Part shown: piece by piece, positions 5,408-6,603 of the stretch
Numbering within the stretch: position 1 is the first letter of the stretch
Layout: each line of letters opens with the position of its first letter
NCBI GenBank assembly: GCA_022823945.1
Contig: JAJEBK010000018.1
Coordinates: 26,987-90,986 of the forward strand
Direction of reading: 5' to 3'
Source of the DNA: Anaerolineae bacterium
Lineage (GTDB): Bacteria; Chloroflexota; Anaerolineae; Aggregatilineales; Phototrophicaceae
DNA length: 64,000 bases
Made by a program: the position numbers and the translations under genes
The notes under the pieces: model-generated
The model's input: the letters and a program-made list of their open reading frames with translations, nothing else
Database searches by the model: none
What the model was told of the DNA's origin: nothing

Positions 5408-5436
5408 TTGACACAATTCCAATGCCCCGCTATGCT
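5408..5436 (+). promoter_or_regulatory. Sigma-70-type promoter of the cysteine synthase leader
   Basis: TTGACA (5408-5413), 17-bp spacer, TATGCT (5431-5436). Confidence 0.65.
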
Positions 5437-5463
5437 CGCTTCCAGCCGCATGACGAGGCAATC

Positions 5464-5517
5464 ATGACCATGCCCCACCGCATTTGTTGTTGTCCCTGGC
5501 ACATGACCGGAGCCTGA
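5464..5517 (+). CDS. Cysteine leader peptide MTMPHRICCCPWHMTGA
   Basis: 17-codon ORF with GAGG 5 nt upstream and three consecutive TGT Cys codons at 5485-5493; lies between the promoter and a terminator-like hairpin ahead of the cysteine synthase. Confidence 0.65.
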   Translation: MTMPHRICCCPWHMTGA

Positions 5518-5531
5518 CCGCCAGCGACAAC
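5489..5531 (+). promoter_or_regulatory. Attenuator hairpin 1:2
   Basis: GTTGTCCCTGGC (5489-5500) pairs with GCCAGCGACAAC (5520-5531), 11 of 12 positions; left arm overlaps the Cys codons. Confidence 0.6.
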
Positions 5532-5555
5532 CGCCAACAGCCCAACGCAACACCC

Positions 5556-5619
5556 AAGTCAACTGGCACAGACGCGACCGGCTAGCCCGCGCGCCGCCCA
5601 AAACCAGTTGACTTTTTTG
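5556..5619 (+). terminator. Attenuator terminator hairpin 3:4 with T-run
   Basis: AAGTCAACTGG (5556-5566) is the exact reverse complement of CCAGTTGACTT (5604-5614), followed by a T-run; ends about 22 nt before the ATG at 5641. Confidence 0.65.
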
Positions 5620-5640
5620 TTGACGCGCCACGAGGAGACT

Positions 5641-6603
5641 ATGCCCTTGACCGCGGAAGTACAGCTGGACGACATGCAGACCACCTCGCTGGCGCAGGAT
5701 ATCGAGCGTCAGGTGGGCAATACGGCGCTGTTGAGCTTTCGACGCGTCACGCAGCACTTGCCGGGCGAGGTGCGCGTCTTCGCCAAAGCCGAATGGCAGA
5801 ACCCCGGCGGCAGCGTCAAAGACCGCGCGGCGCTGAGCATCATCCAGCAAGCCGAACGAGCCGGGCAGCTTTTCCCCGGGCGCACCATCCTCGACAGCAC
5901 CAGCGGCAACACCGGCATCGCCTATGCCATGATCGGCGCGGCAAAGGATTATCGCGTCAAGCTCTTCTTGCCCGAAAATGTCAGCCCAGAGCGCGTCTCC
6001 ATCCTGCGCGCCTACGATGTACAACTGGCATATACCGACCCATTGGAAGGCTCGGACGGCGCGATACGGGCGGTGCGCGAACTGGCGTCGCGAGAATCGG
6101 CAGACTATTTTTATGCTGACCAATACAACAACCCCGCCAACGGGCAGGCGCATTATCACGGCACAGGCGCGGAGGTCTGGCGGCAGACGGGCGGGCAGAT
6201 CAGTCATTTTGTGGCTGGACTGGGCACCAGCGGCACTTTGGTCGGCGCGGGGCGGCGGCTCAAGGAATTGAACCCGGCGCTGCAAGTCGTCTCGGTCGAG
6301 CCCGATTCGCCATTTCATGGGCTGGAAGGCTTGAAGCACATGGGCACGGCGCTGCAGCCCGGCATCTATGACCCGCGACTGGCGGATCTGCAGCTGGCGG
6401 TGCGGACGGAAGCTGCGCACAGCATGGCGCTGCGACTGGCGCGTGAAGAAGGTTACCTTGTGGGCATCAGCGCGGCGGCGGCGATGGTCGGGGCGCTACG
6501 GGTGGCGGAAGGACTGGCGGAGCTTGGCGCTGCGGGGACTGTCGTAACGCTTTTTCCCGATAACGCTTACAAATACCTAAGCGAGGCTTTTTGGCGGGGG
6601 TAA
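5641..6603 (+). CDS. cysM: Cysteine synthase (O-acetylserine sulfhydrylase family, CysM/CysK)
   Basis: 'EWQNPGGSVKDRAALSII', 'DSTSGNTGIAYAMIGA', 'GTSGTLVGAGRRLKE' PLP beta-family motifs. Confidence 0.9.
   Translation: MPLTAEVQLDDMQTTSLAQDIERQVGNTALLSFRRVTQHLPGEVRVFAKAEWQNPGGSVKDRAALSIIQQAERAGQLFPGRTILDSTSGNTGIAYAMIGAAKDYRVKLFLPENVSPERVSILRAYDVQLAYTDPLEGSDGAIRAVRELASRESADYFYADQYNNPANGQAHYHGTGAEVWRQTGGQISHFVAGLGTSGTLVGAGRRLKELNPALQVVSVEPDSPFHGLEGLKHMGTALQPGIYDPRLADLQLAVRTEAAHSMALRLAREEGYLVGISAAAAMVGALRVAEGLAELGAAGTVVTLFPDNAYKYLSEAFWRG

Follow-up and report, generated by a model that had tools for sequence, protein, structure and literature searches.

Ribosome-mediated transcription attenuators of the trp and his type are known from Proteobacteria, Actinobacteria, and some Firmicutes. 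Leaders with poly-Cys uORFs occur in mycobacteria, where they are reportedly leaderless according to the title of a 2020 study said to be by Canestrari et al. The mycobacterial leaders were predicted without terminators (Seliverstov et al., PMC1262725) and are cited as a case of translation attenuation in an excerpt of a second source (PMC13236596). The uORFC-8-2 motif upstream of cysS in the Rhodobacterales is, in an excerpt of its description, a predicted transcription attenuator (PMC8632094).

The locus analyzed here is located in a stretch of 64,000 nucleotides (the window, G000:C31:26987-90986) from an Anaerolineae assembly of 3.5 Mb in 55 contigs. The leader of the cysM gene in the window has every sequence-level defining feature of a trp-type attenuator and very probably functions as a cysteine-responsive, ribosome-mediated transcription attenuator. 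It shares with the trp and his attenuators a leader peptide in which several residues of the regulated amino acid follow one another, the 1:2, 2:3, and 3:4 alternatives, and an intrinsic terminator ahead of a biosynthetic gene, but differs in the amino acid (cysteine), the host (Anaerolineae), and an antiterminator 5' strand that extends across the uORF stop codon. Most Anaerolineae leaders differ further from the trp and his attenuators in that the peptide tail encoded by the antiterminator strand is constant, (K/R)(R/Q)GR-stop, and in that one design is used for several sulfur genes. The short Cys-run uORF upstream of a cysteine biosynthesis gene is also found in the mycobacterial poly-Cys leaders. 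Those leaders are cited as leaderless and translational and have no conserved terminator; the window leader contains a GAGG motif, a predicted 5' UTR of ~20 nt, and a conserved intrinsic terminator with a T6 run. Tandem Cys codons (two in uORFC-8-2), two stems, and a U-run are shared with uORFC-8-2; that motif controls cysteinyl-tRNA synthetase in Alphaproteobacteria and the excerpt describes no covarying antiterminator for it (PMC8632094), whereas the window leader is located upstream of cysM in the Anaerolineae. The preliminary description of the window knew of no such attenuator in this lineage, and a search of the open-access literature (subscription papers were outside its scope) likewise gave no cysteine attenuator from the Chloroflexi. 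The design, trp-type attenuation, is known; the host lineage and a seemingly class-wide sulfur regulon appear to be new.

The cysM Gene and the Elements of Its Leader

The gene downstream of the leader had been described as a cysteine synthase gene, which fits its best database matches: the top NCBIfam model is TIGR01138 (cysM; 319.9 bits, under the curated cut-off) and the top PDB matches are cysteine synthase B. The genes on either side are both encoded on the minus strand and cysM is therefore apparently monocistronic. The amino acid specified by the control codons (encoding CCC to CCCCCC in the genus) is the product of the downstream enzyme. The promoter, GAGG motif, uORF, Cys codons, arms 1–4, T-run, and cysM ATG of the preliminary description are all present in the window at the positions given there and are listed here with the elements identified in this study.

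5408-5436, + strand: sigma-70-type promoter TTGACA-17-TATGCT, 10/12 consensus matches; TTGACA/TATNCT-like hexamers with the same spacing in 29/32 genus leaders
5408-5413 and 5431-5436, + strand: promoter parts TTGACA and TATGCT, separated by the 17-nt spacer (sequence)
5455-5458, + strand: uORF ribosome-binding site GAGG, followed by 5 nt and the ATG at 5464 (sequence)
5464-5517, + strand: leader-peptide uORF MTMPHRICCCPWHMTGA, stop codon at 5515-5517 (sequence)
5470, + strand: ATG of the alternative uORF MPHRICCCPWHMTGA, ending at a stop codon (genus leader comparison)
5485-5493, + strand: Cys codons TGT TGT TGT, the presumed sensor; 3–6 Cys codons here in 32/32 genus leaders
5489-5500, + strand: arm 1, overlaps the Cys codons and pairs with arm 2 (sequence, folding)
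5507-5528, + strand: antiterminator 5' strand (CCGG, GCCTG, GCCAG, GAC), spans the uORF stop codon (folding; covarying counterparts in genus and class)
5520-5531, + strand: arm 2, 11/12 pairs with arm 1; its GCCAG pairs with CTGGC of arm 3 (sequence, folding)
5556-5567, + strand: arm 3, forms the terminator stem from the 5' side (sequence, folding, genus alignment)
5558-5581, + strand: antiterminator 3' strand (GTC, CTGGC, CAG..GC, CCGG), shares positions with arm 3 and the inner part of the terminator (folding)
5604-5614, + strand: arm 4, forms the terminator stem from the 3' side and complements arm 3 perfectly over 11 bp (sequence, folding, genus alignment)
5613-5618, + strand: T-run (T6) of the intrinsic terminator, unchanged in all 32 genus leaders
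5633-5637, + strand: cysM ribosome-binding site AGGAG (sequence)
5641-6603, + strand: cysM, PLP-dependent cysteine synthase, 320 aa

Two elements of the preliminary description were revised. The uORF had been assigned to the ATG at 5464, which is present in the window but absent from L007, a relative with 96% identity in the comparison of genus leaders, and the ATG at 5470 is therefore probably the start. The promoter predicts a transcript start ~20 nt ahead of the ATG at 5464, and the GAGG is present. The 2:3 helix had been described as CTGGC pairing with GCCAG; this pairing exists but is only part of a larger antiterminator that, according to folding, consists of four segments (5507-5510/5578-5581, 5512-5516/5569-5575, 5520-5524/5563-5567, and 5526-5528/5558-5560). 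The suggestion that the long 3:4 loop may fold internally was borne out, and the inner stem is conserved in relatives. A two-arm (2:4) antiterminator (AGCCAAC/GTTGGCT) was dropped because it is not kept across subclades.

The support for the window leader is comparative and does not come from folding energy: compared with shuffled sequences, the energy of the whole leader is unremarkable (z = -0.68) and does not discriminate. A simple terminator scan did not pick up the window terminator because it was limited to loops of 8 nt. No gathering match to Rfam 15 was found in the window, whether T-box, SAM, or other leader family, and a search of 13 loci at a loose threshold (E up to 1) gave nothing relevant and one irrelevant weak match.

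Conservation within the Genus

The genomes used for comparison look like metagenome assemblies. A cysM orthologue is present in 32 out of 34 same-genus genomes and all 32 orthologues are preceded by a uORF with 3–6 Cys codons (e.g., MKHLTCCCCCCQTR, MRIRKHNCCCCCRRTGA, and MFVQFCCCCCCEMGR, each ending at a stop codon). Within the genus, the Cys run is kept but the tail of the peptide differs (among others TGA, RRTGA, and QTR). A 1:2 hairpin containing the Cys codons and a terminator ending in T6 were identified in every one of the 32 cysM leaders, and the minimum-energy fold of the first 23 leaders consists, as a rule, of the Cys-codon hairpin and the 3:4 terminator. A covariance model of the genus leader gave one strong full-length match, located before cysM, in each of the 32 genomes with the gene and none in the other two, where no orthologue was detected. 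The model also gives a weak reverse-strand match at most of the cysM leaders because the terminator (5556-5618 in the window) is close enough to a palindrome. A count of ATG..CysCysCys patterns in the genome of the window (285 on the forward strand) was swamped by chance matches.

In the genus alignment, 89% of the positions in the 1:2 and 3:4 arms are paired compared with 21–56% when the arms are slid. Covariation of 1:2 and 3:4 is not significant in this alignment alone because the arms are too conserved. Overall, the Cys run and the arms of the preliminary description are retained in 32/32 genus orthologues, and compensatory changes in 1:2 and 2:3 are found outside the genus. A lack of conservation in close relatives, which the preliminary description had named as a refutation, is therefore not observed.

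When the Cys codons are removed and arm 4 is absent, most genus members fold into a nested structure in which GGGAGC pairs with GGC.CC, CCGCCT with AGGCG, and GCCA with TGGC of arm 3. A narrower per-sequence duplex test revealed covariations of this antiterminator in L037 (GTTAACCGCTT/AAGCGatGTTAAC), L040 (CTTTAGCCGCGT/ACGCGCTGAAG), the L009 group (GGTGACTTTAG/CTAAAGGCACC), and L018 and L019 (GGGAGC/GGCTCC). The window sequence itself showed no significant duplex in this test (p = 0.75) because part of its antiterminator falls beyond the tested columns. As a free duplex, the genus antiterminator was weak against shuffled downstream DNA (z = -0.68) because the helix is interrupted. The outer and inner helix of the genus alignment together exceed 500 out of 500 shuffles in pairing, double changes, and covariation score. 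The longest uninterrupted stem formed with the leader's own rather than foreign downstream DNA gave p = 5.6e-7 overall, for sequences that are not independent, and the same test was uninformative within family f1.

Leaders in the Order and the Class

The upstream DNA of 120 further orthologues within the order and the class was examined. An ATG-initiated uORF with the pattern C.?C is present in 86 of these regions, compared with 9.4 in shuffled sequences and 19 on the reverse strand. A related leader with the peptide tail CxC(L/C)(K/R)(R/Q)GR-stop precedes most cysM orthologues of the order and also occurs in part of the remaining class families; the cysM relative lacks this uORF in f11, f22, f24, f30, f45, f52, and other class families. 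Outside the genus the peptides are shorter and the tail is constant (CLCLRRGR, CMCLKQGR, CICPGRGR, and CCCLKRGR, followed by the stop codon); the leader peptide of G103, which belongs to the same family as the genome of the window, is MFQRVCCCCLNGGVLTL. The constancy of the tail is explained by RNA pairing: the codons TGT CTG AAG (Cys-Leu-Lys) make up arm 1, with the partner CTTCAGACA after the stop codon, and the (K/R)(R/Q)GR codons plus the stop codon make up the antiterminator 5' strand GCGGGGACGTTAG.., with the partner ..CGTCCCCGC downstream. In most relatives, the uORF stop codon is contained in the antiterminator 5' strand.

Covariation within the class was analyzed in 43 sequences that had been picked because their 2:3 stem was recognizable and then cut at the 3' end of that stem. 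Of the 2:3 core, 87.7% is paired, and it contains 29 double-change cells compared with a shuffled mean of 4.4 (reached by 0/500 shuffles), a figure that is partly circular because the same stem was used to choose and trim the sequences. The 1:2 helix, which was used for neither purpose, is 85.8% paired with 25 double-change cells compared with 8.7 in shuffled sequences (reached by 0/500 shuffles). Slid controls were 34–51% paired. Strong covariation outside the genus is seen at the sequence level in both 1:2 and 2:3, two helices that exclude each other. Tested against dinucleotide-shuffled downstream DNA, the 2:3 helix reached a z of about -3 or beyond in f2, f4, f6, f7, f12, f18, and f42, and -2.8 in f34, and a terminator stem anchored at the T-run beat shuffles in 113 out of 122 leaders. 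Furthermore, in many leaders (e.g., L146) a second possible partner for the antiterminator's 3' half (..AAGCGTGGCGCGTCCC) lies further downstream, GGGA.CGCCGCGCTTT within the terminator, and the choice between the two is a direct either-or switch.

Proposed Mechanism and Alternative Explanations

The proposed mechanism takes the uORF, Cys run, two alternative helices, terminator, and linkage to cysteine and sulfur genes as they are found in the sequences. Transcription would start near 5443 and the uORF would be translated by a ribosome. With plentiful Cys-tRNA, the ribosome would reach the stop codon and cover the strand that the antiterminator needs, and the 3:4 stem and T6 run would end transcription ahead of cysM. 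With scarce Cys-tRNA, the ribosome would stall on the Cys codons and block arm 1. Arm 2, the stretch that spans and follows the stop codon, would then be free to pair with arm 3 as antiterminator, and the polymerase would read into cysM. Untranslated RNA would form 1:2 and 3:4 and be terminated.

The preliminary description had suggested folding the leader with arm 1 masked, and the growing transcript was folded in this way. With a ribosome on the Cys codons (folding from 5504 on), the antiterminator is predicted to form from nt 5568, its core pairs with a probability of at least 0.95, and to remain the best structure until nt 5608, when arm 4 is being made. Once arm 4 is complete, the predicted terminator (-27.0 kcal/mol) is ~7 kcal/mol better than the antiterminator (about -20 kcal/mol), and when arms 1 and 2 are both covered the terminator alone forms. 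The terminator being the more stable fold at equilibrium, antitermination in the window must win kinetically. A kinetic decision is usual for attenuators. The attenuator interpretation thus draws support from the conserved Cys run and arms, the covarying 1:2 and 2:3 helices, and the fold predicted with the Cys codons covered.

A stalled ribosome might instead act on translation, by exposing the cysM ribosome-binding site or by coupling translation. The mycobacterial poly-Cys uORFs set a precedent, being cited as translation attenuation in the excerpt of PMC13236596 and lacking terminators in the leaders seen by Seliverstov et al. (PMC1262725). Such a mechanism is very improbable for the window leader, where an intrinsic terminator with a genus-invariant T6 lies between the uORF and the gene, the AGGAG of cysM (5633-5637) is outside every predicted stem, and the distance to the terminator differs between species. 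Slightly less probable still is a sequence-specific arrest peptide with the tail CLKRGR-stop that responds to a signal other than Cys-tRNA, such as a sulfur metabolite. The tail is indeed kept across much of the class, but its codons make both RNA strands, TGTCTGAAG of 1:2 and GCGGGGACG of 2:3, which covary as RNA, and in the genus of the window the tail is quite different and the Cys run stays.

The unremarkable folding energy of the whole leader would also agree with a constitutive terminator next to a chance short ORF, or with a metabolite riboswitch or T-box. The chance of this is close to nil given a Cys-run uORF at one place in >100 species and covarying alternative helices, and the riboswitch and T-box variants are further opposed by the lack of an Rfam family match. 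Ribosome-mediated transcription attenuation in response to cysteine is accordingly the preferred reading of the window leader.

Other Genes Preceded by Cys Leaders

A second model was built from the 43 class leaders and used to search the phylum and the order; the new targets are not among the sequences from which it was built, and their genes were assigned with Pfam for representatives and by sequence likeness for the rest. Matches in the phylum sample are restricted to the class of the window, which is weak evidence for absence beyond the class because the strict filters also miss the window itself.

The leader, a CxC..RG uORF with antiterminator, was identified in other Anaerolineae families before single cysE genes (L337, MNTCMCLKRGL-stop, and L350, MNICMCLRRGS-stop) and cysK-cysE pairs (L343-L345). 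It was also identified before rhodanese-SufE genes (L338-L341, L349, and L351). In L352 (360-3939, minus strand) it precedes a cluster of genes for a rhodanese, a ThiS-family sulfur carrier, a ThiF/rhodanese fusion, and a cysM-like protein, which resembles a CysO-type route to cysteine via a carrier protein. In family f3, where the sampled genomes mostly have no cysM orthologue, the leader precedes a gene for a DUF4395 membrane protein (L346-L348, L353, and L355-L357), in several cases followed by a thioredoxin-like gene. Its position behind a Cys leader suggests a role of DUF4395 in cysteine or thiol metabolism.

The genome of the window contains a second, compact poly-Cys attenuator (L279, G000:C24:39481-40113 and upstream; also L354), with the uORF MRESFESQTHINCCCWSAGC ending at a stop codon, before a rhodanese-type sulfurtransferase gene that is followed by a probable SufE gene (sequence likeness). 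This rhodanese leader was traced from weak matches of the genus leader model and is present in 30 out of 30 genus loci examined (L258-L287), including the genome of the window; R1 matches in L255 and L256 were judged spurious. Two same-genus genomes, G005 and G008, have neither a detected cysM orthologue nor a cysM leader; in both, the rhodanese gene and the Cys leader in front of it are retained (L286 and L276).

It is likely, with somewhat less confidence than for the window leader itself, that sulfur assimilation in the Anaerolineae is controlled by a lineage-specific cysteine-attenuation regulon. Its members would be cysM, cysK-cysE, cysE, rhodanese-SufE, the rhodanese-ThiS-ThiF-cysM cluster, and DUF4395-thioredoxin, each preceded by a homologous uORF-antiterminator in which the stop-codon region doubles as an antiterminator strand, and it would do the job that is done elsewhere by CysB, CymR, and T-boxes.

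Through these leaders, classical amino acid attenuation reaches the Anaerolineae, a large class of the Chloroflexota whose members are mostly uncultured, and the comparative support for this is strong. That coding sequence, stop codon, and antiterminator overlap makes the leaders a clean system for separating peptide from RNA constraint. By its repeated use, the leader design places the rhodanese-SufE, ThiS/ThiF, and DUF4395-thioredoxin genes within cysteine metabolism and offers functional leads for the poorly known ones among them. Together, the Cys leaders point to how the Anaerolineae may match sulfur assimilation to the supply of cysteine.
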